Origin: Pomacea canaliculata
Lineage: Eukaryota; Mollusca; Gastropoda; Architaenioglossa; Ampullariidae
DNA: 64,000 bases
Direction: 5' to 3'
Assembly: GCF_003073045.1 (NCBI RefSeq)
Contig: NC_037593.1
Coordinates: 13,958,735-14,022,734 of the forward strand
A program made the position numbers and the translations under genes. Shown in pieces: positions 5,587 through 49,700 of the stretch (positions are counted from its first letter, which is position 1; each line of letters opens with the position of its first letter). Under the pieces are notes generated by a model. The model was not told where the DNA came from. It did not search any database and was given only the letters and a program-made list of their open reading frames with translations.

Positions 5587-6375
5587 CAAGTCGACGATTC
5601 TGTCTGGCTTCTGTCTACATTGACCTCAACACCGACATTGCTCTCCTCCTCTACGATAATGCTTCATCGTTCTATTCTCACATCCTTCCTTCCTCCCCTC
5701 TTCCTCCTTGCCCCTTACTCATTTTATTTCCGAGTGTCCGCCTGTCTGTGCATGTGAATATCCTAGAAGTGTCTGTAACAACTAAACACTTGTTCTGACC
5801 GCCATTTCATAATGGTTACAAGTCACAGGCCATCACAATGGCACAACGGCGCACGCATGCACTGTACACACTCACTCACTTGCTCGCAGGCAAGCACGGA
5901 CATGAAGGTTCTTGGATGCCAAGCTGTGTACACGCTTACTAACATTCCCTCTTCTAAAGTCTGAAGCAGGTCTTGTGGTTGGCACTGAAATTCTAAAAGA
6001 CTTCGAACACGTTTTATTTTTCAACAGATTTCTCCTAGAAAAAAATTAAGTTAATTGAAAACTATGTTACAGACGTGACATGTCCCTCGTGTCAGCACCC
6101 ACTGGATCACATGACTACATCAGCAGGTCATCAAGTATAAGGTCGGTGTTCATGCATCCTGTAACCAAGAGGGCGTGCGTCTGTTCCATGCGGATGCTCG
6201 CCTGCCACAGCCTGCTCACATCCGGTGAAGAGATAAGAGGACAACGCTCAGAGTGCAGCCTCAAGTGGACATGACCGTTATTGGGGGGTCATCGTCGCTG
6301 AATTTGCAGTGTAGATAGTCAAAGTGTCCTTTGAGGTGTCCTACAATATTTACCCTATTTTAGCGACTATAGCGA

Positions 6376-14031: not shown

Positions 14032-15615
14032 CTAAAAATGTCCTTTTGCCCATTCCCATACTATGTCTGCCATTTCCTTCCCAGCATCTAACACAAAAGC
14101 ATGACTAAAATCCATCTGGCAAAGGCGAATGTCAGCATCAGGAAATTTCTCTTGCAAAGCAAAGCAGTATTCTTTTGGACACCACTGTCAACTGATCCAA
14201 AATAGAAGCTCATTTTATCAATATGCTGCTTCAACAGATCCACCTGAAGCTGATCCACCACAAAATAGTTCTTGCTTTGCCATATAAGTGGCATGATCAA
14301 CACACACAGGGTTAAAAAGACTCATTGAAGCTGTTATAGAACATTCTGGCGTGTTGAAAAGATCTTAGATGGTACTGAATCAACCTCCGCTGAATTTGGG
14401 GGCTTAAGAAAGACAGCAATTTCACTGCAGTGAGAATTCCCCAGCGAAAGTAGTTCAAGAGAGGTTTAAAGACTCTCCCATTTGGGGATTGCTGCATTTT
14501 TTCTATGGTAGGGAATAGCATAAAACATCGAAGTACTTGGTCCTTGGGAATGTGAGAGAGCAAGTTCAAAATCATGTAGCAGCCAATAGAGTGACCAATC
14601 AGGACTAGTCTTGTGTCTTTAGGAATGATGTTCATTATGAACTTGACTTTGTGCCATATCTGCCCACTTAATGAGTAAGCTGGATCTGGTTCTGTACCTT
14701 TCAAAAGAAATTAGGAAAAGAAAAGTGACAGCTTAATTACAAAGTGAAAGAAAAGAGAACAAATTTTTGTTTCTTTTCCATGCTATTTATTCTTGAAACA
14801 GTTATGTTAATGTAATACTAACTACAAAATATGCACACACGCACACACACACATTTATAAACATGAGGTGGAAAGAGGAAAAGAAACAGCAAGTCACTAT
14901 CTGTCAACTATTCATTCTGCTCATACCTTTAAAAATGTCAGTCCAGCTAAGAGATGATGTCTTTGGACCTGCCACATGTCCTGCTTGTCCCACACACCAC
15001 ACAGGAATGTTTTTCTTGTTTTTTTCCCAGAGTGAGAGCATGAATTGCATATAGTATTCAGGTATGCCAGGATTACCTGAAACATTTGTTTTTAGCACCA
15101 ACAATATATTCAAATAAAGCCTACAGTAGTGGTGTCTAAGGAAATGGATAGATACTCAAATGAAACATGAAAATACATGTACACAAAGATGCATGGAAAC
15201 AGACATTAAGCAGGCTTAAAAATAATAAGCTCCAGTGAAAAGGGCTTTTCTTGGTAGTGGATTGCCTTGGTTTAGACAAAAGGATAATAAGGTCTCAAGG
15301 AAGACAAAACACATGGGATACTGCTCAAAAGTGTGTTCGCTGAGTTGTGTTATCTCTTAGTCTTTAATTTTGTGACATACAAATCAGAAGACATGGAATG
15401 CCCTATACATTATTCCAAAAGAAACATACAGTAGTTACATTTGAATAATGCATGCACATTAATTGTCTTACCAGGAATTATAAGAATAATGATCTTGGGG
15501 TAGTCTCTTTTCCCTCATTCTCACTGGAAAAGTGACCAACTTTCAGAAGATGTGTCTCCACACCATCAATATTGATAAATTCAGACACCAATTCATCCAC
15601 ATTATGGGTCTCCAT
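14032..15615 (-). CDS. LDAH: Lipid droplet-associated hydrolase, LDAH (3 coding exons, frame-broken)
   Basis: Coding exons are 15472-15615, 14927-15076 and 14032-14697, all with GT-AG introns. The product is an alpha/beta hydrolase of lipid droplets related to human LDAH, proposed to act on lipid or cholesteryl esters. Visible motifs are IIPGNPG (oxyanion region) across exons 1-2, the nucleophile elbow GHSIG at 14582-14596, LLSHIPKDQV and FPTIEKMQQSPNGR as in vertebrate LDAH, an acid-residue region GSVD followed by WCPKEY, and a late SHAF carrying the likely catalytic histidine. Four one-base breaks are apparent: one base short near 15504-15515 (beside a G/A run), one extra in the T run at 14314-14318, one extra in the T run at 14262-14265, and one short near 14183-14190. 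Allowing for these, the length is 960 nt (319 residues), close to the family's ~325. Conserved residues are intact, so assembly indels are more likely than a pseudogene. The ATG sits just after a possible 3' splice site, suggesting an upstream non-coding exon. Confidence 0.88.
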
Positions 15616-17010: not shown

Positions 17011-18111
17011 CGAGGAGTTAAGCTAGGTTAGTCGGTACTGTCATTATGGTGAGCAAATAGACATAATGGCTGCGTACATATAATAGAATGGTCATGCACA
17101 CTAGAAACTCAGATGGAAAAAGTATTCACGAAACTTTGTTCCACTACTAAACGCAAATGTTACTTTTCTCAAAGAGTTGCTGCAAATTGAAACTCATTGA
17201 CGACTAACTTTAAAAATGCACCAAATTTGAATAGCTTCAAGAACTTGAACTTAATAAATAACAGTCCAAAATTTGTATAACTAGTTTACAGTTTTCTCTA
17301 GCTGTGTGTGTTGGTGTTAATGGTTATAAGGAGCATTGATGCCTTGAAGGATGTGTGTGTTGTAATGTAAATACCTGCAGGGGTGGGAAAGGTTATCCGA
17401 ACCCTGACCTATAGCATGGAAAATTAGGAGTACTCTAGCAATCAGTAAGCAAAAACAATCTATGAAGTATGAAGTATCGAATGAAAATGATTGTTGGCAG
17501 ATGTATGCTGCTTATTTAACTCATGTTAAAATGTAATTAAATATCAAAACTTAACAATTCTATCAATAATATCAACAATTATTTAAAATCTTTTCAGTGC
17601 ACACAGATCTGCACACGAATAAGGTCCATAAGCTAATAACATTTTTCACATGCACATAACCACTTTTAAGCATACTAATCTAAAATGGCAGTAAATATTT
17701 GTATGCACACTCACACAAACAACCATGCATATACACGAGAACAAATAAGTGTATGTGAAAACAGAATCAATTTAATGTATTTTTTTCAAAAAACAAGAAT
17801 AAATTTACATTTCATGTTGTAGCCAGCAAAATAGCTGAAGTGTTCAGGGACTGCAAATTGTATACAACAGTATTAAATGTCTTGAATTACTTCATAATTT
17901 TATTTACATTCAAAATATTGATGGAATTTTAATCAAACCATGTGAGACTGTTTCAAGTATACAGTTGATGAGTGCTCAGATTCATTATTCTGTATAATTT
18001 AGAATTGCCAAACATAAAGATATTTAAATATATATACTGCCACAAACTGATTTAAAAAAATTGAATTAAGGGTTAGTGCTACTTTCAGAAAAAAACAAAT
18101 AAGAAACATGT

Positions 18112-18126
18112 GTGTGTGTGTGTGTG
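18112..18126. repeat. (TG)n microsatellite
   Basis: Seven TG units; shortened in the matching part of unit B near 27257-27267. Confidence 0.8.
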
Positions 18127-18390
18127 CATGCACCAGCATGTTTGTGTGAGATTCCTTTATGCATATTCCTGCTTTTTAAAAAAAATAATTAGGTCTTTAA
18201 TAAATAACAGAATCACAGAAATTTTACAATATGATGGGTGCTCCCTGACAAAGCAAATGACAAACACCTGAAAGTTTCGTCATGACACAGCCAACAAAAT
18301 CTTTTAATCACCAGCTACTGTTGTGATGCCTAGAGGCTTCGTATCTATTAACAAGCTGTTTGATTTGTTCAACAGAATAAAGAATATACT

Positions 18391-21300
18391 TCAAAAGGAA
18401 GACAGATCATCCAAGGCATTCGTAAAACTGATGAGACCAGACAAAGTTTCAATGTGTAGTTTCTTCTCTAATGTGTTGTAGAAGAACTCAGGTGCCTGCA
18501 AAAGAAATATAGGACATATTGCCAGGTAAATCTAAAGAATATTAATATCCATGTGTACACATGAAGTTATAGATTTAGTATTGAGTTTACATTTAATTGG
18601 TACTTTTTTTCTGCATGCACAATGATCAGAAATGAAGCCACCATTACATTAATCCCCACATCCATAGCTATTCGTAATATAGTTCGAAAGAGACTAAAAG
18701 CGAGAGGAGGAAGATGGGATTAATTAGAGAATAAAGAAGGATGAGTATTGGAGATTTGGAGCAAGATAGATATAAACTAATGATTAAATGAATGAAAATC
18801 TTAGTGGCAAGCCAGCAGATAATTTATCAATTTGGAAGACGAAGTTGTTTTATTCCATTAAAATACTTTAATATACAATGGATAACTACATATTTAAGAT
18901 TAAGTTTAGTACTTGACGTAAATCTTAATTCTCATCAAAAGAATGGTTTCAAGTTTTGTTGATGAGCCATGATGATTCTATAAATATTATGTCAAAAATT
19001 AATGTATAACAAGATAAATAGCAAGATTGTCATATTAATATGACAATGAGCTGTAAAAACTGAGCTAACCTCTTGTCGAAGACTGTGTAGGAAAACAATT
19101 TCTTTTCCTGTTAAAACCTCCAGTTCTGTTCTGTAAGTGAAGCAAAATGTTTTAATGCTCATTATAAGACTAATATGGTTATATTGCTTTGTTTTTTTTA
19201 TATAAAAACTCACAACTATGTGTAAACACTTAATAAAACAAGGTAGGAAATTATTTATTAAAAAAATGTGGAGGTGGATCATGTTCAATTTAGACACCAG
19301 AATATTAGTGGTCATTACAAATAAATCTGTTGAGTATAGTACTCGATCAAGATCATAACTCAGCAGTGCACCTTTACTCTAATAATCTATTTTTTTGTAA
19401 TACCCGAGCCATCAATTAAAATGCTAGTCACAGATTAAGGAATTCTTGCATATACTTTAACATTTACCCATTCAAATCATGTCGTTTTAGCCAAGCTTGC
19501 ACATCATTTCTATTCCAGGAATTGATTTTATTGATTATACTTGAATACAGGTTCTTTGCTGGCTTTGACAGTGACCTGTGTAGCAACAGTGGAGATGAAC
19601 TTTCCTTCTAGAAGAAATAAAAGATATGCAAATCTGTAAGTAAAGTTCTATATGTATAAGAATTGGAGGAGTTTTTTTTTTAAATGAAAGAGGAAATGTA
19701 GGAATGAAGAAGATGAGAAGAGTTACAAAATGAAGCAATAAAGAGGGTAACTGATTGTATACTTTTATACTAATTTGTAATGTCTCATAAAAAATGTTTC
19801 AACATTTTCACACCCTTTGTGTCTTATAAAAGGAGTTTTCATTTTGAAATACACTTTTTTTGACAATTAAACTGCATTCAGTACTGATGTCTGCATGAGC
19901 CACTGGATTTATTCCATTTAGGAGGATGCCATGAATTATACAATAAATGTGTTGAGTTCCTCTGGTCAAAATGAAACTGACCCATTCATTTAAAACGTTG
20001 TTTACACATCATGTAACTATGAAATGACTCCACTAGCTGACAGACAATAAACCATTTACATTATGTTAACTGTTCAAATGTCAAGTCAATGATTTAACCA
20101 CATTCTACTACAACCACGTACTCACCAAATCAGCAGACATTTCAGGTGATACTTGCTTAAACGATTCAGGCTTTTCTGTAACATTTCCTACATGCTTGTG
20201 AACAGCTTTAATAAGTTGTTCTAAGCGAGATTCAAATGAATATTTTCCACTGAAGTCATAAAACAGTTTGGTGCCCAAGATCATGCCAAGCCAGCCATCT
20301 GGGTTATAGCATCTTTCCATTATGAGGGGAATGATAGGCCTATGTTTTTGGAATGCATATTCTGCTTCTGAAATGGGACAAAAACAGGATATTTTGTAAA
20401 GATCTTTAGTAGAATTCTGACATTAATTTGGCTGCTAAAATGTAAAAATCAAAAGTGGGTGATACTGTAGAAATATAGAGGGGTGATCATGATTAGATTA
20501 TGCAGATAAACTTGAAAACACTGTGAGTTCTGTCCTGAAAAATATCCTGAGTTATATAAAATTATGTCTGAGAAAGAGTGAATGAAAATCAGGATAGAGA
20601 ACTGGACCCACCAGCTCGACAGTTGGGACTATCTTTATATTTCTGTGACATGCAGCAGACAATGACAAATGCCTTCTCCACTGCCTCTGCCATAGCCTGA
20701 AGAGTGGATCCACCCATGTCATCAATATCCATCCAGACTTTAATCCCCTGATAAGATAAACAGATTTTTACAGAATGGAGGTCTTGTTGGTTACTTAGAT
20801 GGTGAATTTACACTATGGGGTTAAGTACAGATAACAAACCAAAGGAAAAGCAGAAAAAAAACCATCATACAGGATCTGAACCCAAGACTTTTCAATCCTT
20901 ACAATACTAGTGACAAGCAGTAATTTTAACGCTGCACTACACAAGCACTCCTAAACAATTAAAATGACAAGAGGTGCCATTCTTTAGCTCATTCAATATG
21001 GATAAATCCACGCAAGTAAGCTGTAGCTATTAATATCATGTATGTCCAGGTGGAAAGCGTATGGAAGAGTTAAAAGTTTGTTTTTTACTCCTTGTGTGTA
21101 TTTTTTTTCTCTCTTTTTCACTATGCATCCATACACTCTCTGTTTTTGTCTCTCTTAAACCATTCGGATGATTCAATATTCAATAATGAATCTGGTCACC
21201 ATGGCAAACCACACTCACATGTGATCGAAGATTGATCGCGAATTTTTTTAACAGTTTCTTGGTCTGCCCACTGGTATGAAATCATCACATGACTTTGAGG

Positions 21301-24300
21301 ATCAAGTGTGTTGCCGACAGGTGCCACATCTAAGCGTGCCAAATCACTGTCAGTTCTTGAGGCTTTCTGAGTGAACTTCTTGCCTGGTCAGTAAATATTT
21401 AGACACCACAACATTCAAAAAACATCATGTTTTCAAAGGAAAAAGTCACATACTGTGGTAACGTTAGTAATCGTAATGTGAGTGATGCTCTTCTGAAGAA
21501 CTGGTGCAATGCACTGGTGATCTCAAGTTTGATCTCATATACGTCAGAGAAGATTTAATGAAGTAAATATTTATCGGATTTAATATCATTACTTGCATAG
21601 ATTTTTGCTTTTTCAAGTGTCACAACAAACGTTGAATCCAATATTAACCAGCATAAATAACAAAGTGTGTTACACACATATTTTGTACTACATATCTTGT
21701 CATTTATGTAATATTATAACAGAACTATTATGTAAAACATTTTACTCTTGCTATACCAAATCGTATTTTTCACCTGTTCTTGTTTGTCTCTATACTTGTC
21801 TGTCTCTTATCCATTCTTCTTATCCTCTGTCTCTCTCTCTAACACACACACACTAATGCATACACACAGAAATACGATTACACTTCCACCACATACTTAG
21901 TATATACATGCAAACATATACATGTAAACAAATATTAACTCGTCCCATAAATAATATAAATACTATTTATTTACATAGTGCTTTACCCCACCATCAAAGG
22001 CATGCTGAAAACACTGTACAAAAAGAAAATACAGCTGGTCTTAAAAGTAAAGAATTGATTGTGCATACACACACATGTGTAAAAATAGATGTAAACATAC
22101 AAATGTAGAGTTACTGTATATATGATTGCATGAAATATCTCAGATTGTCTCACCAATGCAAGCATGTTTTTCATCTTTTACCAGCTCATGACGAACTTGC
22201 CACAGAATTCCTCGACAAGCTTTCTGACAGGTCTTGGAATTAGTGCCCTCCTTATAAAGGGTGACTACTTCATCAACAAGGTCCTTTTCTTTCATTATCT
22301 CAGAGATGTTCTCCTTGTCAAAACTTAGGACCCATATTGCCTCATAGCTGACTTGAAAATAAGAGACACAACTGAATTAGATAGTAAAGATAATCATCAA
22401 AAGCACTAAATATAAATTATTTTTCTAGTATTTTTCTCCTATCTTTTAGCTTTCTTACTTTAATTCATTCACTCCTTCATTCTTAATGTCATTTAATTTA
22501 CTCCTTTGTTCCTGTATACATTTATACACTTATCAAATACTTCTTTAATGCTTGATGCTTTTAAAATATAATAATGGGATATGAAAAATATTACTTCCTA
22601 AAGTAAACTTGTACATTTCAGCAATAATTTGCTTTTTAAAATTGATCTGTTGGATATGGTTTTATTCACTGAAATTTCCCTGCTAAACATCCCAGGCCCA
22701 CATCTTAATTTTGAGTGCATGTCTTTTGTATCTGCTTCATATTTCTTCAAAGTATTGAGGGCTCTCATCCCCTTCATCTGTGTCTTAAAAAAGCTCCAAT
22801 TTGCTGACAATGCATGTAATTTCAAATCATACACTTACTTTCTTGTTCATTTTGATAAACTGATTTGAGGCCTTGAGTCAGCAAAGGAAGTGCACCCTCT
22901 TTCACTAGAAGCCTCTTATTGGCATCATTTCTTGCCAGCTGTCTTATAGCTGAGAGAAACAACAATTACTTCTTGTAGAAACAAAGTATTGTTGGAATTA
23001 TTTACATTTCCAGGGGAGAGAAATACAGCCTCATCCCCACCAATCTCAACTAAAAGGAACATAATGAAGATAATAAATGTTTTTGAAAATATTTCTACTC
23101 CAGCCCTCAAACACTCTCCAAAAATACAATTGTACTCATGAACCTGCATCCATGCACACCCACATTTTGTAACACTGTGCATAAAACTCTTATAATCTTT
23201 TATCACAGCTAATGATGTAGGATTAAAAATATTTCAAAATGATGAAGCTTAAATTACTTTTAACAATCTCAGACACGCTCCATCCATCATGCCTTCGAAT
23301 ATTGCTGACCAAAGCATTTTTCAGCCTCTCAAGAAGGAACTGCACAAGATCTGGTGAAGTGGCAAGTTGATCTGCCTCAGCCTCTGTGGCAATGTCCGCA
23401 ATAGCAGAAACAGCAGAAAGCCTAGGCACACACACAGAAAACCCTGGTTATTCCCATAAATATGAACCATACATAAAAGGACTGCAGGCAGTCTGCTGAC
23501 TGCCGAGACAAAACTGTACCTACTCACACAAGTATAGTGGGCTGTCTACAGAGTGCTTAATATGGTACAGAAGTTTTAGTCTTTCTGAGCTCATATTAAT
23601 TTTTATGCACCAATATTAAACATATGTTAGATATGTACTGCAACATTACTTTAATTTTTAAACACTTTAAGCGGAAAACTGTTTTCACTTGAATCTGTCT
23701 GAAGTGGAGTTGAGATACGGCAGGAGTACTTTTGAAGCATGCAACTTTTGCAATTTGGACACATTTTCTGGATACATGGCCATGTTGTGGATTGATCCCA
23801 GTGACCACGGAAGAAGACTCTGAATTTCTACTTTCTGTACAGAATAAAAGGGATATTTGTCACAAATACACTTTAATGTTAAGACTTATCGTTCTCTTTT
23901 TTTGTAGGACACTCCCCTCCACCAAATTGAAAAAAGGTAAAACTGGCAAACTTGATAAAAATGTTAAATGATTATAAGTTAAATACAGCATATTTACTTT
24001 TTCATTAAACAGGAACCCTGACAACTGTTTTCCAATGTTTGTTATTCATCAACATGTTATATACTTACTATCAAAGTACCCTCCACATGAGGCTGGTACC
24101 ATTCCTTTAGCTTCTGTAACAAAACTGACACAAACTGTTCCTGATCTCGAGCCACAAAAGAAACCTCTGGACAACAATCCATGAAGTTGAACACCGTCAA
24201 AAAGGCATTCTTCAATGGATTCCACCACTCAGGAATAATGGTACTATCTTCAGCAGCATATCTTCTCCACTGAAGCCCCTCTGCAACTACATCGCAGAGC

Positions 24301-25251
24301 ACCTGCACTGACCCCGAGTCTGCTAGGAGCTGACCAGCTGTGCGTCTACTAGCTGTTGTGACACTGACATTAGGATTCTTAAGCTGAAAATACGACTGCT
24401 TTATGCTTAAAAGTTGTTTTCGAAATTCTTCAGCGTAATGTCCTTCATCATCAAATTTTATGATGGAAGATGTTTTATTGTAATTTTCAAGAAAACTTAG
24501 ATCCATATGAGCTTCTTGATCATGGCCTGTGGTATATTTCTGCTCTTTCACGTCTTTAGTTTCATCATTTTCTGCTTGTTTGTTCATGATAATAGATGCT
24601 GGTTTATTCCTTAAGTCTGCAACAAAATTAAAAAAGTAAAACAGTAACAATCAGCCTAGCATTAAGGAGATCGAGGGATTCAAAGAAAAAAAAAATTTAG
24701 ACAAAAACATTTTCTAAAATGACAAATTCTTTTTAATGAATAAAGTTATTTTCTAAATTAGCAGCATAAATCATAACCACTAGAACAAACAATATAAGCT
24801 TTTTGTAAGTGTAACTATTCAGCACTGCTTGTATTGTAGCTCTTTATTTTATTTTAATGGAATTTGTTTCTTTATATTTTATTCTTTCTTTTCTCCATAT
24901 TTGTACTGAAAATGTTAAGTATTGCTTAAAATGTAGCTCTTTATTGTATGTTAATGGCATTTGTTTTTGAAAATTTTATTCTTTCTTCTCTCCAGATATG
25001 TAAAAGGAAATTAGACAAAATGATTTGAAATTTTACATTACAGGTAATGAAGAAAAAAAGCCAGCAAAAGCAAAAAATACAGATGTAGACCATTACCAGT
25101 TTTCAGATATTGCAGATATCATGTCAGTACCGAACTGTCCAACTGTGTTAGCTACATATTTTTCTGGTCTGACAGCAGCAGAAATAGCTGGAGCTACTGA
25201 AGTCACACTCACAGAAGTTGCAGCAGTCTCACTGCTTTGGGATCCCTTTTC
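18391..25251 (-). CDS. ARM-TIR-SAM protein, copy A: 5'-truncated paralogue, probably non-functional
   Basis: Exons equivalent to 2 (partial) through 13 of copy B: 25097-25251, 24069-24616, 23689-23834, 23258-23421, 22839-22949, 22154-22351, 21219-21383, 20612-20747, 20126-20367, 19468-19604, 19070-19130, 18391-18495. All exon lengths and splice sites match copy B. The TIR core is kept: HVMISYQWADQ, VWMDIDDMGGSTLQAMAEAVE, SPNCRAEAEYA and GWLGMILGTKLFYDF. Exon 1, most of exon 2 and the promoter are absent: homology stops at 25251, where repeat R3 begins. There is one surplus base at the end of exon 2 (an A run just before the donor) and one in exon 8 near 21230. A transcript could only start in R3 or internally (for example the Met of MNKQAEND in exon 3). 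Best reading: a duplicated copy without its 5' end. Possible expression remains open because the downstream exons look selected or young. Confidence 0.75.
20825..20950 (-). mobile_element. Ancient SINE fragment inside unit A
   Basis: The segment CTGAACCCAAGACTTTTCAA, then -TAGTGACAAGCAGTAATTTTAAC-, parallels the CTGAACCCAGGACAGCCAAC and GGTGACAAGCGCTAACCG parts of the SINE at 57837-58012. The same fragment sits at the matching place in unit B, so it is older than the duplication. It lies in the intron between the two TIR exons. Confidence 0.5.
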
Positions 25252-25965
25252 CAAGTCGACGATTCTGTCTGGCTTCCGTCTATACATTGACCTCAACATT
25301 GACAATGCACTCCTCCTCACTATGATAGTGCTTCATCGTTCTATTCTTACCTCCTTCCTTTCTTCCTTCCTCCCCTCTTCCTGCTTGCCCGGTTGCCCCT
25401 TACTAATTTTATTTCCGAGCGTCCGCCTCTCTATCCTAGGAAGTGTCTGTAACAACTAAACACTTGTTCTGACCGCCATTTCATAATGGTTACAAGTCAC
25501 AATTAAGCCATCAAAATGGCACAACGGCGCACGCATGCACTGTACACACTCACTCACAAACATGGACATGGAGGTTCTAGGGTGCCAAGCTGTGTACACA
25601 CTTACTAACAAGTCCCTGTTCTAAAGTCTGAAGCAGGTCATGTGGTTGGCACTAAAACTCTAAAAGACGTCGAACACGTTTTATTTTTCAACAGATTTGT
25701 CGTAGAAAAAAGTACGTTAATTGAAAACTATTCTTGGTCTTTACAGATTTGACATATATGTCCCCCGTGTCAGCACCCGCTGGATCACATGACTACATCA
25801 GCAGGTCATCAAGCATGAGGTCGGTGTTCATGCATCCTGTAACCAAGAGGCGTGTGTCTGTGCGTTCCATGCAGATGCTCACCTGCCACAACCTGTTCAC
25901 ATCCGGTGAAGAGATAGGAGGACAACGATCAGAGTGCAGCCTAAAGTGGACATGACCGTTATTGG
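25252..25965 (+). repeat. Dispersed repeat R, copy R3, at the duplication junction
   Basis: Starts inside what was coding exon 2 of copy A and ends about 8 bp before unit B begins. It matches R2 (5587-6282) in order and orientation: AAGTCGACGATTCTGTCTGG at the left, TAAACACTTGTTCTGACCGC in the middle and GTGGACATGACCGTTATTGG at the right. It therefore fills the junction between the two duplicated units exactly. Confidence 0.85.
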
Positions 25966-26306
25966 GTGACGATCAGGAGTTAAGCTATATAGGTTGTCAG
26001 TACTGTCATTTTGGTGAGCAAATAGACATAACGGCTGCCTACATATAATAGAATGGTCATGGACACTAGAATTAAGCTTGGAAAAGTATTCGCCAAACTT
26101 CGTTCCACTACTACGCAAATGTTTTTTTTTCTCAAATAGTTGCTCCAAATAGAAACTCAGCCGACTAAGTTTTTAAAATGCACCAAATTTGAATAGTTTC
26201 AAGAACTTTATAAATAACAGTCCAAAATTTGTAGAACTAGTTTACAGTTTTCTCTAGCCTGTATGTGTTGGTGTTAATGGTTATAAGGTGCATTGATGCC
26301 TTGAAG

Positions 26307-26465
26307 CAGACCTGGGCAAATGCCGGTGACCGGCCCGCCCGCCGGTATATATTTTATACTATATATACAGTATTGGGTAAAACTGAGTTAACTATATTAG
26401 TCCGGCCCTCTAAAACCTACCCATTTCTCATGCGGCCCCTTGGGAAAATTAATTGCCCACCCCTG
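26307..26465. mobile_element. hAT-type MITE in unit B only
   Basis: The ends CAGACCTGGGCAA and TTGCCCACCCCTG are imperfect inverted repeats of the CAGGGGTGGGCAA type common in hAT elements. CTTGAAG flanks both sides (26300-26306 and 26466-26472). The empty site in unit A reads GCCTTGAAGGATG near 17341-17353, with a single CTTGAAG. No coding capacity. Confidence 0.85.
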
Positions 26466-27347
26466 CTTGAAGAATGTGTGCTCACACACCTATAAGTATG
26501 TGTGTGTTGTAATGTAAACCACCTGCAGGGGTGGGAAAGGGTTATCCGAACCCTGATCTGCAGCATGAAAAATTAGGAGTACACTAGCAATAATTAAGTA
26601 AGCAAAAACAATCTATGAAGTATGTAGTATCGAATGCAAATGATTTTGTTGGCAGATGTATGCTGCTTATATACCTCATTTTAAAATGTAATCAAATATC
26701 AAAACTTAACAATTGTATCAATAATATCAACAATTATTTAAATCTTTTCAGTGCACACAGATCTGCACACGAATAAGGTCCATAAGCTAATAACATTTTT
26801 CACATGCACATACCCACTTTTAAGCATACTAATCTAAAATGGCAGTAAAGATTTGTATGCACACTCACACAAACATCCATATACATGAGAACAAATAAGT
26901 GTATGTGAAAACAGAATCAATTTAGTGTAACTTTTTCAAAAAACAAGCATAAATTTACATTTCATGTTGTAGCCAGCAAAATAGCTGAAGTGTTCAGAAA
27001 CTAAAAAATGTATACAACAGTATTATGCATCTTGAATTACTTAATAATTTCATTTACATTCAAAATATTGATGGGATTTTAATCAAAGCATGTGAGACTG
27101 TTCAAGTATAGTGTTGATGAGTGCTCAGATTCATTATTCTGTATAATTTAGAAACACCAAACATAAAGATATTTAAATATATATACTGCCACAAACTGAT
27201 TTAAAAAAATTGAATTAAGTGTTCGAGGTACTTTCTGAAAAAAAAACAAATAGGAATGTGTGTGTGTGCATGCACCAGCATATGTCTGTGTGAGATTCAT
27301 TTATGCATGCTTGCATATTCCTGCTTTTTAAAAAAATTTTAGGTCTT

Positions 27348-28430
27348 AAGAACATGTTCTTTGTATTTTAAAACAGTACAAGTCAAACATGTGTACAGGC
27401 AAATCACAATTTTACACAAAGGGTGTGTTCTAGAAAAACCTGTATGGATTTAACAAATTGTGTAATGCAAAAAGGCTTACATCATTATTATGTACAGTGG
27501 CCTCCTAACTGATAGCCATGATTTACCCTTTGATCTATTCCTTGTGTTTGAAATCACATAATTATGGGAAACAGCAACACAGTTAATATAAATAAATATT
27601 GTTCATATTCCCTTTTGTGGTGAATATATAACCGCTTGCAAATGCAGCCATCTATAATGAGGATCTCTGCAACATGCATGACTCAGTGCTATAAATGCCC
27701 AGATCAGCCCTGATTTCTATGAGAATGGGTTTATCCAGCATCACATGAAATATTTATTAATTAAATGCTGAAAGCATGAATATCAAATCAAAAGATCAGA
27801 ATGCATGTCATATGTGACCTGATAGTAATGTCTATGAAACAAAGCTAGCAAAGCTTGAAAATATCCAACATAAATGACTAATCGAACGGTTCTCAACTTG
27901 TGGGCGTGCCCCCCTAGGGGGGCGCGACGTGCTTACAAGGGGGGCACGAAGGTGGTCATTTTTTAAAAGTTTCTTATACCAGTATTAGTGAAATTAGCTT
28001 ACATTAGCTTATTAAGGGGGGCGCGCGGATGTTCCTTTGTTCGTCAGGGGGACGTCACAAGTGAAAGGTTGAGAACCGCTGGACTAATCAAAAAGATTAT
28101 AGTTCAACAGTGATCTTTATCATATAATTATGGATGTGTATCAGTGATACAAGACTATAATATATAGTGTAATCACATGATCAAAGATCAGTCACTGTTC
28201 AATCACATTACAGTATATGCAATCACGAGTAGATGGGTAAAGAGTTAGGCGTTTGCTGCATGTTGGTAGACATGCAGGTGCATTTACAAGCACACACACA
28301 CAAAACGTGTAAATGTAAATGCAATTACATTCCACTGAAATGTGTGTCCACTTGTCTTTACACTAACTGAATTGTTTACCCCTCATTTAATGAGCATTTA
28401 ACTTTTAGCAACAAGGATCATGTCTTCAAC
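27348..28430. other. 1.08-kb segment present in unit B, absent from unit A
   Basis: Left of it both units read TTAGGTCTT; right of it both read TTTAATAAATAACAGAATCA. In unit A these join directly (18191-18200) with a shared CTT. The segment is AT-rich, non-coding and contains a complete hAT MITE. Either it was lost from A by a micro-homology deletion or it was gained in B. It lies beyond the 3' end of the ARM-TIR-SAM gene. Confidence 0.8.
27884..28081. mobile_element. hAT-type MITE, 198 bp, with 8-bp target-site duplication
   Basis: The terminal inverted repeats are GAACGGTTCTCAAC (left) and GTTGAGAACCGCTG (right), the CAGCGGTTCTCAAC type found across animal hAT elements. An exact 8-bp duplication GACTAATC lies at 27876-27883 and 28082-28089, the length expected for hAT. 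The interior has a CCCCCCTAGGGGGG palindrome and no ORF. Confidence 0.93.
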
Positions 28431-28627
28431 TTTAATAAATAACAGAATCACAGAAATTTTACAATATGATGGGTGCTTCCTGAGAAAGCAAATGACCAAC
28501 ACCTGAAAGTTTCATCATGACACAGCCAACAAAATCTTTTAATCACAAGCTACTGTTGTGATGCCTATAGAGGCTTCGTATCTATTAACAAGCCGTTTGA
28601 TTTGTTCAACAGAATAATGAATATACT

Positions 28628-31600
28628 TCAAAAGGAAGACAGATCATCCAAGGCATTAGTAAAACTGATAAGACCAGACAAAGTTTCAATGTGTAGTTTC
28701 TTCTCTAATGTGTTGTAGAAGAACTCAGGTGCCTGCAAAAGAAATATAGGACATATTGCCAGGTAAATTTGATAAATATTTATATCAATGTGTACACGTG
28801 AAGTTATAGATTAAGTACTGAGTTTACATTTAATTGGTACTTTTTTTCTGCATGCACAATGCACAGAAGCCATATATTAATCCATACGTCCATAGCTATT
28901 CATAATATAAGTTCGAAAGAGACTAAAAGAATGGAGGAAGATGAGATTAATTAGAGAATAAAGGATGAGTATTGGAGATTTGGAGCAAGACATACATAAA
29001 CTAATGATTAAATGAATGAAAATCTTAGTGGCAAGCCAGCAGATACATTTATCAATTTGGAAGACGCAGTTGTTTTATTCCATTAAAATACTTTAATATA
29101 CAATGGATAACTATAGATTTAAGATAGCTACATATTTAAGATTAAGTTTACTACTTGACATAAATCTTAATTCTCATCAAAAGAATGGTTTCAAGTTTTG
29201 TGGATGAGCCATATGATGATTCTATGAATACTATGTCAAAAATTAATGCATAGGAAGATAAATAGCAAGAATATGACAATGAGCTGTAAAAACTGAGCTA
29301 ACCTCTTGTCGAAGGTTGTGTAGGAAAACAATTTCTTTTCCTGTTAAAAACTCCAGTTCTGTGCTGTAAGTGAAGAAAAATCTTTTAATGCTCATTATAA
29401 GACTAATTTGAAAATATTGGGGTTTTTTTAAAATAAAAACTCACAACTATGTGTAACACTTAATAAAACAAGGTAGGAAATTATTATTAAAAAAAAAAAT
29501 GTGAAGTTGGGTCATGTTCAACTTAGACAGCTGAATATTAGTGGTAATTACAAATAAATCTGTTGAGTATAGTACTCAAGATCAGAACTCAGCAGTGCAC
29601 CTTTACTCTAATTAACTATTTTTGGTAATACTTGAGCCATCAATTAAAATGCTAGTCACAGATTAAGGAATTCTTGCATATACTTTTACATTTACCCATT
29701 CAGGTCATGTCGTTTTAACCAAGCTTGCACATCATTTCTGTTCCAGGAATTGATTTTATTTATTATATTTGAATACAGGTCCTTCGCTGGCTTTGACAGT
29801 GACCTGTGTAGCGACAGTGGAGATGAACTTTCCTTCAAGAAGAAATAAAAGATATGCAAATCTGTAAGTAAAGTTCTATATGTATAAGAATTGGAGGAGT
29901 TGTTTTGAACGAAAGAGGAAATGAAGGAATGAAGAAGATGAGAAGAGTTACAAAATGAAGCAATAAAGAGGGTACTTGATTTGATACTTTTATACTAATT
30001 TGTAATGTCTCATAAAAAATGTTTTAACATTTTCACACTCTTTGTGCCTTATAAAAGAGTTTTCATTTTGAAATACACTTTTTTTGACATTTAAACTGCA
30101 TTCAGTACTGATGTCTGCATGAGACACTGTATTTATCCATTTGAGAAGGATGCCATGAATTATACAATAAATGTGTCGAGTTCCTCTGGTCAAAATGAAA
30201 CTGACCCATTCATTTAAAATGTTGTCAACACATCATGTAACTATTAAATGACTCCACTAGCTGACATACAATAAACCATTTACATTACGTTAACTGTTCA
30301 AATGTCAAGGCAATGATTTAACCATATTCTACTACAACCACATACTCACCAAATCAGCAGACATTTCAGGTGATAGTTGCTTAAACGATTCAGGCTCTTC
30401 TGTAACATTTCCTACATGCTTTTGAACAGCTTTAATAAGTTGTTCTAAGCGAGATTCAAATGAATATTTTCCACTGAAGTCATAAAACAGTTTGGCGCCC
30501 AAGATCATGCCAAGCCAGCCATCTGGCTTATAGCTTCTTTCCATTATGAGGGGAATGATACGCTTATGTTTTTGGAATGCATATTCTGCTTCTGAAATGG
30601 GACAAAAGCAGGATATTTTGTAAAGATCTTTAGATTTCTGACATTAATCTGCCTGCTGAAATATAAAAATCAAAAGTGGGTGATACTGTAAAAATATAGA
30701 GTGCTGATCATGATTAGATTATGCAGATAAACTTGAAAACACTGTGAGTTCTGTCCTGAAAAATATCATGAGTTATATAAAATCGTGTCTGAGAAAAAGT
30801 GAATAAAAGTCAGGATTAAGAACTGGACCCACCAGCTCGACAGTTGGGACTATCTTTATATTTCTGTGACATGCAGCAGACAATGACAAATGCCTTCTCC
30901 ACTGCCTCTGCCATAGCCTGAAGAGTGGATCCACCCATGTCATCAATATCCATCCAGACTTTAATCCCCTGATAAGATAAACAGATTTTTACAGAATGGA
31001 GTCTTGTTGGTTACTGAATTAGATGGTGAATTTATACTATGGGGTTAAGTACAGATAACAAACCAAAGGAAAAGCAGAAAAAAACCATTACACATGATCT
31101 GAACCCAAAACTTTTCAATCCTTACAGTACTAGTGACAAGCAGTAATTTTAACACTACACTACACAAGCACTCCTAAACAAAATGACAAGAGGTGCCATT
31201 CTTTAGCTCATTCAATATGGATAAATCCATGCAAGTAAGCTGTAGCTATGAATATCATGTATCTCCAGGTGGAAAGCGTATGGAAGAGTTAAAAGTTTGT
31301 TTTTTACTCCTCATGTGTATTTTTTTCTCTGTTTTTCACTATGCATCCATACACTCTCTGTTTTTGTCTCTCTTAAACCATTTGGATGATTCAATATTCA
31401 ATAATGAATCTGGTCACCATGGCAAACCACACTCACATGTGATCGAAGATGATCGCGTATTTGTTTAACAGTTTCTTGGTCTGCCCACTGGTATGAAATC
31501 ATCACATGACTTTGAGGATCAAGTGTGTTGCCGACAGGTGTCATATCCAAGTGTTGCCAAATCACTGTCAGTTGTTGATGCTTTCTGCATGAACTCCTTG

Positions 31601-34600
31601 CCTGGTCAGTAAATATTTAGACACCACAACATTTACAAAACATCATGTTTTCAAAGGAAAAAGTCACATACTGTGGTAACGTTAGTAATCGTAATGTGAG
31701 TAATGCTCCTCTGAAGAACTGGTGCAATGCACTGGTGATCTCAAGTTTGATCTCATATACGTCAGAGAAGATTTAATGAAGTAAATATTTATCCAATTTA
31801 ATTTCATTTACTTGCATAGATTTTTGCTTTTTGAATGTGTCACAACAAACGTTGAATCCAATATTAACCAACATCTATAACAAAGTGTGTTACACACATA
31901 TGTTGTACTATATCTTGTCATTTATATAATATTATAACAGAACTATTATGTAAAATATTTTACTCTTGCTATACCAAATAGTATTTTTCACCTGTTCTTG
32001 TTTGTCTCTATACTTGTCTGTCTCTTATCCATTCTTATCCTCTGTATCTCTCTCTAACACACACACACTAATGCATACACACAGAAATAAGATTACACTT
32101 CCACCACATACATATTATATACAAGCAAACATATACATGAGCACTTGTAAACAAATATTCACTTCTCCCATAAATAATATAAATACTATTTATTTACATA
32201 GTGCTTTACCCCACCATCAAAGGCATGCTCAAAGCACTGTACAAAACAAAATCACAGCTGGTCTTAAAAGTAAAGAATTGATTGTGCATACACACACATG
32301 TGTAAAAATAGATGTAAAATACAAATGTAGAGTTACTGTATATATGACTGCATGAAATATCTCAGATTGTCTCACCAATGCAAGCATGGTTTTCATCTTT
32401 TACCAGCTCATGACGAACTTGCCACAGAATTCCTCGACAAGCTTTCTGACAGGTCTTGGAATTAGCGCCTTCCTTATAAAGGGTGACTACTTCATCAACA
32501 AGGTCCTTTTCTTTCATTATCTCAGAGATGTTCTCCTTGTCAAAACTCAGGACCCATATTGCCTCATAGCTGACTTGAAAATAAGAGACACAACTGAATT
32601 AGATAGTTAAGATAATCATCAAAAGCACTAAATATAAATTATTTTTCTAGTATTTTCTCACGTCTTATAGCTTTCTTACTTTAATTCATTCACTCTTTCA
32701 CTCTTAATGTCATTTAATTTACTCCTTTGATCATGTATATATTTATACACTTATCAAATGCTTCTTTAATGCTTGATGCTTTTAAAACATAATAATTGGA
32801 CATGAAAAATATTACTTCTTAAAGTAAACTTGTACATTTCAGCAATAATTTGCTTTTTAAAATTGATCTGTTGGATATGTTCACATTCACTGAAATTTCC
32901 CTGCCAAACATCCCAGGCCCACATCTTAATTTTAAATGCATGTCTTTTGTATCTGCTTCATATTTCTTCAAATTATTGAGGGCTCTCATCCCTCTTCATC
33001 TGTGTCTTATAAAGCTCCAATTTGCTGACTATGCATGTAATTTCAAATCATGCACTTACTTTCTTGTTCATTTTGATAAGCTGATTTGAGGCCTTGAGTC
33101 AGCAAAGGAAGTGCACCCTCTTTCACTAGAAGCCTCTTGTTGGCATCATTTCTTGCCAGCTGTCTTATAGCTGAGAGAAACAAAAAATTACTTCTTCTAG
33201 AAACAAAGTATTGTTGGAATTATTTACATTTCCAGGGGAGATAAGTAGAGCCCCATCCCCACCAATCTCAACTAAAGGGACATAATGAAGATAATAAATG
33301 TTTTTGAAAATATTTCTACTCCAGCCCTCAAACCATCTCTCTCCAAAAATACAATTGTACTCATGTACCTGCATCCATGCACACCCACATTTTTGTAACA
33401 CAGTACATAAAACTCTTATAATCTTTTAGCACAACAAATGATGCAGGCTTAAAAATATTTCAAAATGAAAAAGCTTAAATTACTTTTAACAATCTCAGAC
33501 ACGCTCCATCCATCATGCCTTCGAATATTGCTGACAAAAGCATTTTTCAGCCTCTTAAGAAGGAACTGTACAAGGTCTGGTGAAGTGGCAAGCTGATCTG
33601 CCTCAGCCTCTGTGGCAATGTCCGCAATAGCAGCAACAGCAGAAAGCCTAGACATACACATACACAAAACTCTGGTTATTCCCATAAACATGAACCATAC
33701 ATAAACTGGACTGCAGGCCGTCTGCTGACTGCCGAGACAAACCCATACCTACTCACACAGTATAGTGGGCTGTCTACAGAATGCTTAATGTGGTACAGCA
33801 GTCTTAGCCTTTCTGAGCTCATATTACTTTTTATGCACCAATATTAAACATATGTTAGATATGTACTACAACATTATTTTAATTTTTAAACATTTTAAGC
33901 TGAAAACTGTTTTCACTTGAATCTGTCTGAAGTGGAGTTGAGATACGGCAGGAGTACTTCTGAAGCATGCAACTTTTGCAATTTGGACACATTTTCTGGA
34001 TACATGGCCATGTTGTGGATTGATCCCAGTGACCACGGAAGAAGACTCTGAATTTCTACTTTCTGTACAAAATAAAAGGGATATTTGTCACAAATACAAT
34101 TTAATGTTTTTTGTAGGCCACTCCCCTCCACCAACTTGGAAAATGGCAAAACTGGCAAACTTGATAAAAAAGTTAAATGATTATAAGTTAAATACAGCAT
34201 AGTTACTTTTTCATCAAACAGTAACACTGACATCTGTTTTCCAATGTTTGTTATTTATCAACATGTTATATATACTTACTATCAAAGTACCCTCCACATG
34301 GGGCTGGTACCATTCCTTTAGCTTCTGTAACAAAACTGACACAAACTGTTCCTGATCTCGAGCCACAAAAGAAACCTCTGGACAACAATCCATGAAGTTG
34401 AACACAGTCGTAAAGGCATTATTCAATGGATTCCACCACTCAGAAATAATGGTACTATCTTCAGCAGCATATCTTCTCCACTGAAGCCCCTCTCCAACTA
34501 CATCACACAGCACCTGCACTGACCCCGAGTCTGCTAGAAGCTGGCCAGCTCTGCGTCTTCTAGCTGTTGTGATACTGACATCAGGATTCTTAAGCTGAAA

Positions 34601-36152
34601 ATACGACTGCCTTATGCTTAAAAGTTGATTTCTAAATTCTTGAGTGTAATGTCCTTCATCATCAAATTTTATGATGGAAGATGTTTTATTGTAATTTTCA
34701 AGAAAACTTAGATCCATATGAGCTTCTTGATCATGGCCTGTGGTATATTTCTGCTCTTTCACGTCTTTCGTTTCTGCATTTTCTGCTTGTTTGTTCATGA
34801 TAATAGATGCTGGTTTATTCCCTAAATCTGCAACAAAATTAAAAAAGTAAAACAGTAACAATCAGCCTAGCATTAAGGAGATCGAGGGATTCAGAGAAAA
34901 AAAAAATTGACAAATGAAACATTTTCTAAAATGACAAATTCTCTTTAATAAATAATGTTATTTTCTAAATTAGCAACATAAATCATAACTACTAAAACAA
35001 ACAATATAAGCTTTTTGTAAGTGTAACTATTAAGCACTGCTTATATTGTAGCTCTTTATTTTATTTTAATGGAATTTGTTTCTGTAAATTTTATTCTTTC
35101 TTTTCTCCAAATTTGTAGCTGAAACTGTTAAGTATTGCTTAAACAGTAGCTCTTTATTGTATGTTAATGGCATTTGTTTTTGAATATTTTATTCTTTCTT
35201 CCCTCCAGATATGTAAAGGAAATTAGACAAAATGATTTATAATTTTGCCTAACAGGTAATGAATAAAAAAGCCCAGCAAAAGCAAAAAGTACAGATGTAG
35301 ACCATTACCAGTTTCAGATATTGCAGATATCATGTCAGTACCAAACTGTTCCACTGTGTTAGCTACATAATTTTCTGGTCTGGCAGCAGCAGAAATAACT
35401 GGAGATACTGAAGCCACACTCACAGAAGTTGCAGCAGTCTCACTGCTTTGGGATTCCTTTTCTCTTTTGGACATTAAGCTTCCATCGTGAGTCTGAAGGG
35501 AACTTCCTTCCAACCTCTGTATTTTAGGAAGAGCTATGTCTGACCCATTACCACTAAAAGTTTTAGGGTAAAAACCATTGTTAATTTGAGTAGTCATTTG
35601 ATGATTGTTAGACAACTTTCCATTTTCATTATTCAAAGTCAGTTTGCAGTTATGCTCTGTTAGTTTCTAAAGGAGAGAAAAAAAACACATCATTACTCTT
35701 ATAAGCATTTCAATTATTGGTTTAAGTTCAAATTCTTATTCTTAATATTTCAACACATTTAGTTAGATACTATTTTTATAATGTAGACATATAAAACATC
35801 AATTTTGTATGCATGAGAAAGGAGTGATGTAGGAATATAGAACATCAATTTCGTATCCATGAGAAAGGAATAAAAGATGTCACAAACTACCATAGCTTAT
35901 TCTTAAACTATTTGTAACATGCATCTACATGCTGATGAGTTAACTGATTGATGAGTTAAATGAGTTTAGCTGTCTTGTATTTTTCAGGTAAACATTTTCT
36001 CTGAATACCTGGCTGAATAAAACTGGGGGCAGTGAGACATGTTGGCAGTTCTGGTTTTGTCCCAGTGGTTGTTGAACAGCTGGTCCCCCACTGTGTTTCT
36101 TTGCTCGAAGACTTTGTAGCCCTGACCACGTTTTGTGCACATTGGCTGCCAT
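28628..36152 (-). CDS. ARM-TIR-SAM protein, copy B (13 coding exons): SARM1-like, domain order permuted
   Basis: Coding exons: 36009-36152, 35309-35666, 34280-34827, 33917-34062, 33484-33647, 33060-33170, 32376-32573, 31437-31601, 30833-30968, 30350-30591, 29696-29832, 29303-29363, 28628-28732. All are GT-AG with matching phases. They sum to 2514 nt (837 residues) once one surplus base in exon 8 (about 31550) is discounted. Residues 1-165 are low-complexity. About 170-555 is alpha-helical and armadillo/HEAT-like (for example TIRQLARNDANKRLLVKEGA, EAIWVLSFDKENISEIM). About 588-715 is a TIR domain (HVMISYQWADQ, GIKVWMDIDDMGGSTLQAM, GWLGMILGAKLFYDF). About 755-837 is a SAM-like helical module (SWNRNDVQAWLKRHDLNG onward). 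Glu657, in CRAEAEYA, lies 11 residues before IIPLI, the spacing of catalytic Glu642 before IVPII in human SARM1, so NAD+ cleavage is plausible. Likely cytosolic innate-immune or cell-death factor. The ATG follows a CTTTCAG acceptor, so a 5' UTR exon lies upstream. Confidence 0.87.
31045..31172 (-). mobile_element. Ancient SINE fragment inside unit B
   Basis: Orthologous to the fragment at 20825-20950, in the intron between the two TIR-encoding exons 8 and 9, with the same CTGAACCCA- and TAGTGACAAGCAGTAATTTT blocks. Confidence 0.5.
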
Positions 36153-46762: not shown

Positions 46763-49656
46763 TCACCGGGTCACAGGGTCTAATGGCACGTGCTGAGCCC
46801 CGGATTTTTGCATGTTCAGTACGGCTGAGTAGCTGGCTTGCAGGCGAGCGCTCTGGGACTCCAGTCTCATGCGGAGGTCTTGCAGCGTCTCCAGAAGGAT
46901 CTGCTTCCGGTGAATGTCCAGGAGACGCTGAAGCCTCAGCTTCTGCTGTTGTCGCAGCATCTCCTCCTCTCGGGCTTCCCGGATCTTACGTTGGACCAGC
47001 AGCTTTCCCTGCCGCAGGAAGAAGACCTTGTCCTCCAGGCTGCTGGTGACCTCGCGAAGACTGCGACCCGTCGCCAGGCTAAGGTCAAGGCTGTGTTCCG
47101 AAAGTTCCGAGCTCTCACCCTTCGACTGGAGAACGCAGCGTGGGAGGGAGTTCCCGGCGGGTGAGGTCGAGGCCAGGGGGGTTGTCCTGATGTGGTGCCG
47201 GAAGAACGTCGCTGACGGACGAACGAGGACAAGGGCGCTGCGCGTGCGCGAGTCCCTGTTCCGGCTGGAGAAGACGTCCGGTCCTTCCGACGACCTGCGA
47301 AACTTCAACTGCTCGCTGAAGTCACGAGACCCTGTCTCTTCGAAAGGTGACGACCGTCGTTTGAAAGACGGGTCGAAACCGTGGCTCATGACGTCAGGAA
47401 AGCGTGTGACGTCATACGGGTAGGGCACGATGCTGTCAGAGACCACGAGGTTTTCCAGGCGACAAGGCCGTCGACGGTCTCGAGGCCGCTGGTTGGAAAA
47501 CGCGCTACAGAGGCCGTCGCTGCAGGAGCAGTAACCGGTGTTTTCCACCGCAGTTTTCTCCCTTTCTTGAAGGAAAACGGACCAAACTCTGTTAGAAAAT
47601 CATTTGTACTTTGAGTCCACAAGTAGACTATCTCTAAAGGTTTCTGGGGAAGAGATTGGAGTGGAGGCTTAGCTCGATGCCCTGCAAGCCAGCCATGGAA
47701 AGGTCGAAAGCCTCTGTGGAAACAGGAGTGTCCCGATCTCGAGAGACCGGCGGTTCGTCGGGTTCTTTGATGTCGGAGGCGACGTCGTCGTCTTCGATTT
47801 CATTGTGACACTCACGGCTGAGGCTGGAGTACCCAGTGTCCGTGGAATCCTGCATGCAGTCCGGCATGAGCCAGAACTTGTTGTCCATGTCATGGGCTTC
47901 AGCAGCAATAGTAGCGGCATCGTCTTCATCCTCAATAATTCTGTCTCCCTCTGTAGCGCCGTCGCTGGCATTGGTTAGCCACTCCAATTCAGAGTTAGTT
48001 AAGACATTGATTTCGTCATTCTCTGGGTCATCCTCTTCTTCTTCATCGTCATCGTCTTCGAAGTCGGTCTGTACAGCCACGTCTGCTGTGCGCGCAGTGC
48101 CGCCTAGAAGGTCGCGGAGCCCACGTGTCACGCTGCGTGCCGGTCTTTCTACTCCGCACACGCCGCTAGTGTTGGGGTCTGAACTTTCCATCACCACCCT
48201 ATCGTGCATCGACTGGCCGCCCTTGCAAGAGTAACTGGGCTCCATAGAAAAATCTTTATCAGGAACAGGACGATCTTTCATTTGTGGGCGACAACTACCG
48301 TCGATGTGAGTGGCGAGGGCTACCTCCCTCGTGTCCTCGTATTCGTAGCTGATGTTGTGCGCAAGCTGCTCAATGTTGCTGGTCAGGGCGCAGATGCTGA
48401 CGGAGGGTGACAAAGCGTTGTCTTCCTGGGAATCTGAATCCCAGGCCTTGGAATTTCTGTTTCCTACCGCTGGTGAGAGCGGCGTCTCGAACTCGCACCC
48501 GTAAGAGTTTCTTCGAATGATTGCGCCGTATTCTCCTGGGAGCTGCTGGGACCTGCGAATCACTTTAGTCTGCTGCAGCCCGCTCGGAGTGGATGTGGAG
48601 TGAATGGTGTTGAGATTGTTATACGAAGAAGAATCCAGATCCCATTGTCTGTTCCATCTTTTTGAATCAGACTTTCTGCTAAAGCCAGTGTTGTTGTCGT
48701 TTCTGCTGTTGTCCTTCACGTCATAGTGGATGTGATCCTGAAAGTGAAGCACCTCCCCAATGCCGCTGTCTAAAGTGGAATAATACTGCTCACATTCCGC
48801 GGAGGAGTAAGTCGGTAGCGAAGCGACAAACGCGGCGGCCCTGACCTCAGAATGATGCGGTCGATGTCGTCTCCGACGACTCTGCTGAGGAGCGCTTCGG
48901 GGTACGTGCTCGCTAGGTGACGTCAGAGGCGACACGTTATCAGAGGTGAAGGAGAGGGGGAGGAGGACGATGAGCGGGAGGAGGAGCAGGGGAAAGAAAG
49001 GCTGCGTACACTGTAGGGGCTGGGGCGAGGCGAGGGGAGCCACGGGTTGGTTCGAATCCGCGAACGGCTCCGTGGTGCCTTCTGTCCGCTGGAAGTCAGC
49101 CCCGCCGGCGTGAGATCTTCCAGACACCCGTGACCAGACGAGTATCCACACGTGCTGTCAAGGTCACAGTCATGCTCACACCACTCACGGAGAGGCCGGG
49201 GGGAGGACAGATCGCCACATTCGTCGAAAGTCGCTTCCTCCAAGGGAAGGCAAGCGAACTGTTGAGGAGGTCGCTGCTGTAGTCAGGGCTCCCCAGTCCC
49301 AGGGCGGAGGACGAAGACGCAGAGTCGTCTAACCTTTGCTGCTCCTGTCCGTTCTCTTGATCGTGGAAACCTGAATTTTGTTCCCTGTGTCTCCGAGAAG
49401 GAACCTTTGTTGAGCTTTCCTTTCCTAGAAGTCTGTCCCAGAAACTAAAGCGGGATTCTGCCACGGGGAACCAGTTACCGTTTCCGTCCGGTTCTATTGC
49501 CGTCGGCGAGGACAGCTGCTTCTTCGACGACGAGGACGCCGAGGAGGCCACGTTGTTGGTCTTAGGCGTTGATGTGGAACCGGGAACCTGCTGGCTCTTT
49601 TTCTTCTTTCCTCGCACTCGCGGGAGGGAGTTAGCGACAAGTTCACGCAGCTTCAT
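46763..49656 (-). CDS. Large disordered protein with acidic tracts and C-terminal coiled coil, not recognised; frame-broken
   Basis: GC-rich, essentially intronless coding sequence on the minus strand. It begins MKLRELVANSLPRVRGKKKK at 49656. A frame of 186 codons leads to about 49250, a second continues to about 49090 (EEATFDECGDLSSPRPLREW, STCGYSSGHGCLEDL), and a third runs 505 codons to a stop at 47634. The third includes YYSTLDSGIGEVLHF, a D/E run, VAVQTDF and DSTDTGYSSLSREC. Downstream, 46763-47548 is open for 261 codons and ends in a charged coiled coil (EDKVFFLRQGKLLVQRKIRE, LLETLQDLRMRLESQSARLQ). The repeated GYSS/TGYSS motifs on both sides of the breaks argue for one protein with one-base breaks near 49255 and between 49100 and 48930. 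Joining the last segment needs further frame changes or a tiny intron near 47550-47640. Looks like a scaffold or cytoskeletal adaptor; no family assigned. Alternative: two adjacent genes. Confidence 0.6.
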
Positions 49657-49700
49657 GGCGTTGGCACGTTTTCTATTGGCTAATAAGCGTCACGTGAGGA
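49657..49700 (-). promoter_or_regulatory. Proximal promoter or 5' UTR with CCAAT box and CACGTG E-box
   Basis: Reading the minus strand toward the ATG at 49656, a TCACGTGA-type E-box (49690-49697) is followed by GCCAAT (inverted ATTGGC, 49675-49680). Both elements are typical of TATA-less animal promoters. The closeness to the ATG means either a very short 5' UTR or that the motifs are transcribed. Confidence 0.4.

Follow-up and report, generated by a model that had tools for sequence, protein, structure and literature searches.

Candidate ARM-TIR-SAM genes, including a tandem pair, in a snail genome that also holds SARM1-type genes

SARM1/TIR-1, an NAD+ hydrolase (NADase) with the domain order ARM-SAM-SAM-TIR, is described as an octameric ring in which the SAM domains stand between ARM and TIR and a contact between ARM and TIR represses the enzyme (PMC8635717). 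Molluscs are also reported to possess ARM-TIR proteins, which form a listed class in the oyster Crassostrea gigas (PMC4346834) and number 10 (text) or 11 (table) in a report on Aplysia (PMC9334734); proteins of this kind are therefore already known from both animals. Other combinations include family 6 of the ecTIR-DC proteins, with ARM, Death and two TIR domains, described from the clam Loripes (PMC6836662) and belonging to a set apparently absent from vertebrates (PMC6321704), and an amphioxus TIR-SAM hybrid gene for which a cDNA was reported (PMC2575513). Here, a stretch of 64,000 nucleotides from the snail Pomacea canaliculata (C4:13958735-14022734, in an assembly of 440 Mb and 24 contigs), called the window below, was analysed; it carries a gene whose predicted product presents ARM, then TIR, then a SAM-like module. 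We somewhat favour the view that a snail ARM-TIR-SAM family, which would be distinct from SARM1 and SARM1-like in its logic, is represented at this locus by one member together with a broken tandem copy.

The gene is encoded on the minus strand (36152-28628), where 13 coding exons, as already proposed by the first-pass annotation, join into one open frame of 828 codons through 12 introns that each have GT...AG ends. Acceptor-like sequence immediately upstream of the first ATG suggests a further 5' exon, and the coding exons are numbered 2 to 14 in the table. Spliced alignment of the 828-codon protein back to the DNA returned identical exons, which is a self-consistency check only. The ARM region spans exons 4-8, the TIR domain exons 9-11 and the SAM-like module exons 12-14.

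A genome search with the TIR domain gave 24 matches, and four further loci were modelled: P1 (C2:20.25 Mb), P2 (C13:23.41 Mb), P3 (C13:5.62 Mb) and P4 (C2:10.29 Mb), whose N-terminal exons are unreliable and among which P3 holds a spurious one-base exon. All four, located on two other contigs, show the domains in the order ARM, TIR, SAM-like. In all five models, the codon of the TIR glutamate is interrupted by a phase-1 intron (NCRx/E, the slash marking the exon border here and in the donors below), while a phase-2 intron inside the SAM occupies the same column in four, that of P4 being four columns off; a phase-0 intron precedes the APEFF-like motif in the same proportion, P4 having no intron there. 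Identity to the window copy amounts to 49-60% for the TIR, 26-28% for the ARM and 30-41% for the SAM; with identities this low among members, the architecture is not recent. Since the order recurs at four further loci and the tandem copies differ with a ratio of nonsynonymous to synonymous divergence (dN/dS) of 0.39, we take the order in the window gene, which the first-pass annotation had put forward, to be real and not a product of chance. As for the genome as a whole, it contains at least 95 matches to TIR_2, many of them clustered; weaker relatives returned by the TIR query lie at C10:7.47 Mb and at C13:1.4 and 4.1 Mb.

As the joined exons are known from genomic sequence alone, an ARM-TIR gene and a separate SAM gene next to it might have been joined by mistake. 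This is highly improbable and was rejected, because the TIR is followed by SAM-like exons at each of the five loci, the window gene included, with intron phases in common.

Of the individual domains, ARM and TIR are both clear. A profile of the ARM regions of the five members matches Vac8 (3.3e-26) and beta-catenin, and Pfam Arm matches three of the five; both results rest on an alignment whose P2 and P3 rows were hand-trimmed, at one exon border, of a few residues presumed to be intron read-through. Pfam TIR_2 matches residues 580-700 of the window protein (2.5e-27).

A SAM-type C-terminal module, which had been anticipated after about residue 750, is supported there by profile searches. SAM_3 is the top Pfam match for the C-termini of all five members, and one of them passes a SAM cut-off (P2 with SAM_2, 20.8 vs. 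20.5 bits). Of the 53 different PDB sequences that a C-terminal profile of the five matches with E no higher than 10, 51 come from 13 proteins, mostly ETV6 constructs, and two from corticoid receptors; fusions containing several copies of ETV6 make the lowest E-values look better than they are, and the best single-domain match is neurabin-1 (3.4e-4). The 13 proteins are all taken by us to have SAM or Pointed domains. Compared by profile with ten ordinary SAMs from the same genome, the family C-terminus obtained a P of 4.6e-4, three controls giving 0.33-0.84. Several observations weigh against a SAM assignment: the probability in that comparison is only 33%, the SAM_3 match of the window copy is weak (E 0.07-0.1) and below the cut-off, a Pfam scan of the whole window protein returned no SAM, and the signal comes mostly from the first half of the domain; the second half carries a family motif, (A/V)P(E/Q)FF. 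Taken together, a divergent C-terminal SAM is supported by these comparisons.

The ARM-TIR-SAM order, or a C-terminal SAM, was named nowhere in the available portions of the literature searched, although Gerdol 2017 (ecTIR-DC families), which we know by citation, may describe one. The window gene thus shares with the known mollusc ARM-TIR proteins the combination of armadillo repeats and a TIR in one gene, whereas no C-terminal SAM is mentioned for those proteins in the sources consulted. Such a module could have been missed in the known proteins, since four of the five members described here fall below Pfam cut-offs. The amphioxus hybrid resembles the family by its TIR and SAM, but the accessible part of its description mentions no ARM, and the likeness is one of description only.

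The relation to SARM1 was approached through a segment of the human SARM1 TIR, used as a query. Its four genome matches at E up to 0.01, which run past exon ends and hence hold stops, all fall at two loci of the same contig, C4:8531825-8535182 (-) and C4:10441539-10445148 (+). In both, SAM exons lie upstream of the TIR, and it is on SAM plus TIR that their assignment as SARM1-type genes rests. SARM1 is typically present once per genome (PMC7075850), and Aplysia is listed with three (PMC9334734). A SAM pair on contig C3 (7.03 Mb), considered as another SARM1 candidate, was set aside after a crude search for motifs on the forward strand revealed no TIR.

A TIR tree limited to this genome and rooted at its midpoint was built from 23 rows and 159 columns: the five family members, the two SARM1-type TIRs and 16 rows selected manually among the 95 TIR matches, L048 (a fragment) and the C13:1.407M row (which holds a stop) having been dropped. 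The window copy clusters with P1-P4 in a separate group (92/87), which adjoins a cluster of paired TIRs on contig C13 (96/93) with the SARM1 pair outside (100/99); family, paired TIRs and SARM1 stand together apart from the 14 other TIRs (98/97). The two TIRs of the 4.13-Mb pair are the nearest to the family.

A SARM1 gene with shuffled domains would account for the three identical domain types and for the place of the family TIR in the tree, on the side of SARM1. It is nevertheless a very remote prospect, and it was rejected: two SARM1-type genes coexist in the same genome, the human query matches these two loci only, the family TIRs join the paired TIRs before SARM1, and no SARM1 appears among the 60 ARM profile matches listed of 149. 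Because SARM1-type genes are present alongside and the family TIR falls outside SARM1 in the tree, the gene is, as judged from these comparisons, not a rearranged SARM1 but a member of a separate ARM-TIR family. The proposal of an assembly independent of SARM1 is thereby sustained, while the label SARM1-like does not hold by descent, given that the SARM1 TIR signatures are absent. The two kinds of protein share ARM, SAM and TIR within one chain and an aligned catalytic glutamate; they differ in that the snail family has a single SAM at its C-terminus, the SARM1 order being found neither in the window gene nor in its four paralogs, and in their TIR motifs and TIR groups.

The paired TIR exons on C13, at C13:4094387-4147003 and C13:1405661-1407594, are separated by about 1.3-1.7 kb, and the cluster is possibly of the ecTIR-DC family 6 type. 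A SAM of the present type was not found in 4.5 kb of sequence from C13:4.13M, nor beside the C13:1.4M pair except for an 11-residue match (E 0.62). ecTIR-DC family 6 likewise combines ARM and TIR, but it has a Death domain and two TIRs vs. one TIR and no Death match in the window protein.

On sequence grounds, the family TIR may be an enzyme or a scaffold. The catalytic position carries a glutamate in each of the five members, and this residue aligns with that of the WVHKE motif in the two snail SARM1s; the NCRxE motif around it is likewise invariant. The best solved relative of the family TIR profile is Cat1 (CRISPR-associated TIR 1; 1.4e-7), which we take to be an NADase and a prokaryotic defence protein, and which has other partner domains. 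We infer NADase activity and an immune function. Against such activity, the alignment shows that the motifs of the SARM1 TIR, namely W and H before the glutamate, the BB loop E(R/K)LEAG and the EE loop H(D/E)YQ (PMC7075850), are absent from the family, which has NCRxE and DDMGGST in their place. In addition, a glutamate at this position is reported to be common also in groups of TIRs for which no activity is known (PMC7075850), so that it permits NADase activity and does not show it. The TIR might then be a non-enzymatic scaffold, an adaptor as in MyD88, with ARM and SAM providing partners and clustering. The placement of ARM-TIR genes among the adaptors in Aplysia (PMC9334734) and oyster (PMC4346834) would agree with this, while the invariant glutamate and NCRxE, the tree position with SARM1 and the paired TIRs, and the match to Cat1 speak for an enzyme; we rate a scaffold as a serious candidate that falls a little short of an even chance.

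As to an origin from bacteria or viruses in recent times, the conserved motifs gave 543 pattern matches in one scan of prokaryote genomes and 34 in one of viral contigs, none of which passed tblastn. No relative was thus confirmed and such an origin was set aside, a result that covers the absence of the conserved motifs in the scanned sets only. PADLOC and NCBIfam matched bacterial defence proteins of the TIR/SEFIR kind in part, the best being bSEFIR (2.3e-12) and a retron TIR (1.5e-4).

The first-pass annotation had counted 837 codons with one surplus base. The base is real, but the count is not retained: the 837 codons are the 828 plus nine, obtained by extending exon 8 to ATTG/GTGAGA (32376) and dropping one base, whereas ending the exon 28 nucleotides earlier, at CTG/GTAAAA (32404), gives 828 codons without dropping any. 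In a simple scoring scheme, the latter donor reaches 1.8 vs. 4.0 for the former.

The window also holds a tandem pair and not the single gene assumed at first. Positions 18195-25251 and 28430-35462 form a tandem duplication, 93% identical, and further duplicated pieces (17013-18197 and 25975-27347) are 87-90% identical. Copy B, the truncated duplicate, differs in length by single bases in exon 3 and in exon 9, and neither donor of exon 8 gives it an open frame. The sequence at 25252-25966, related to that at 5587-6285, is a repeat and probably a mobile element. The three exonic length differences between the tandem copies are all single A bases and could be assembly errors. Over exons 4-8 and 10-14, dS is 0.064 and dN 0.025, with dN/dS values of 0.40 for the ARM and 0.15 for the SAM exons; divergence amounts to 5.6% in non-coding sequence and 3.7% in exons. 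From these ratios and the lower exon divergence, the frame, SAM exons included, was under constraint during part of the period since the duplication.

Several of these data argue against an intact window copy. Its frame is open only if exon 8 ends at the weaker donor; with the stronger one, the sequence as it stands runs into a stop in exon 9, before the TIR. TIR exons 10-11 differ between the copies by eight nonsynonymous and no synonymous changes, which suggests relaxed or changed constraint in one of them. The family architecture could then be real, with P1-P4 as its working members, and the window copy disrupted by a frameshift and a stop, in line with the broken state of copy B. In the ARM-TIR linker, each of the four paralog models has at least one phase-1 intron, which is the phase of the stronger donor, though not its column; given that these introns come from automatic gene models, fall in four different places and are doubled in three of the four models, they are weak evidence. 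Against disruption stand the 828 open codons with all splice sites kept, the overall dN/dS and the possible assembly origin of the single-A differences, and we lean away from this reading while considering it a real possibility. The window copy may owe its open frame to the weaker donor, contain a one-base assembly error or be disrupted; its TIR and SAM exons are open from HVMISYQ onward.

If the favoured ARM-TIR-SAM family is real in function, its products would be cytosolic proteins in which the N-terminal ARM solenoid restrains the TIR and senses a ligand or partner, while the C-terminal SAM gathers several copies. Once released, the TIRs may pair and either cleave NAD+, for signalling or cell death, or form a TIR scaffold. 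With the SAM on the far side of the TIR, repression would have to operate through direct contacts between ARM and TIR and not across an intervening SAM ring. Any ring that forms would grip the TIRs at their C-terminal flank, where the SAM lies, and each ARM would be joined directly to its TIR. A broader proposal, which we regard as unlikely in its entirety, is that molluscs have a second, independently built class of ARM- and SAM-controlled TIR NADases, with the SAM behind the TIR, duplicated in snails and serving inducible immune cell death instead of axon death.

The same parts in another order, beside SARM1-type genes, raise the question of which contacts repression and assembly cannot do without. 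The comparison is informative because repression of SARM1 depends on the arrangement of ARM, SAM and TIR (PMC8635717). Furthermore, the family may supply concrete members of the animal TIR clades, mollusc ones included, that a 2026 preprint presents as uncharacterised (PMC13142454).

Table. Features of the window related to the ARM-TIR-SAM gene and its tandem copy
Feature	Positions	Strand	Basis
Exon 2, first coding, from ATG (MAANVHK...); no recognised domain	36009..36152	-	Splice sites, frame; no Pfam match
Exon 3, coding; no domain match	35309..35666	-	Splice sites, frame, Pfam scan
Exon 4, probably N-terminal helical part of the ARM region	34280..34827	-	Splice model; low-confidence all-helical fold of exon 4 alone (mean predicted local distance difference test, pLDDT, 55)
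Exon 5, ARM region	33917..34062	-	Splice model, ARM profile search
Exon 6, ARM region	33484..33647	-	Splice model, ARM profile search
Exon 7, ARM repeat	33060..33170	-	Splice model, ARM profile, Pfam Arm
Exon 8, ARM, with weaker donor CTG/GTAAAA	32404..32573	-	Frame stays open; end with stronger donor, 32376
Exon 9, ARM-TIR linker and TIR start (HVMISYQWADQETVKQIRDHLRSH)	31437..31601	-	Splice model, Pfam
Exon 10, TIR core to ...SPNCRA and base 1 of the glutamate codon (aligned with SARM1 catalytic glutamate)	30833..30968	-	Splice model, Pfam, alignment
Exon 11, remainder of the glutamate codon and TIR end (EAEYAF...DFSGKY...)	30350..30591	-	Splice model, alignment
Exon 12, linker and first helix of the putative SAM (NSWNRNDVQAWLKRHDLN)	29696..29832	-	Splice model, SAM profile searches
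Exon 13, middle of SAM-like module	29303..29363	-	Splice model, family alignment
Exon 14, end of SAM-like module, family motif APEFF, stop	28628..28732	-	Splice model, family alignment
Tandem copy B, exons 4-14; exon 2 absent, exon 3 (358 nucleotides) without its first 204	18371..25251	-	Self-comparison of the window
Probable repeat sequence taking over where copy B breaks off	25252..25966	.	84.6% identical to 5587-6285

Elsewhere in the window, an exon of a lipid-droplet associated hydrolase gene occupies 14315-14710 (-; Pfam LIDHydrolase, 2.4e-29). Long open stretches of 278, 507 and 197 amino acids, without Pfam matches at E 0.01, are found at 46766-49689 (-), and the end of the 278-residue stretch presumably resembles SCHIP1.

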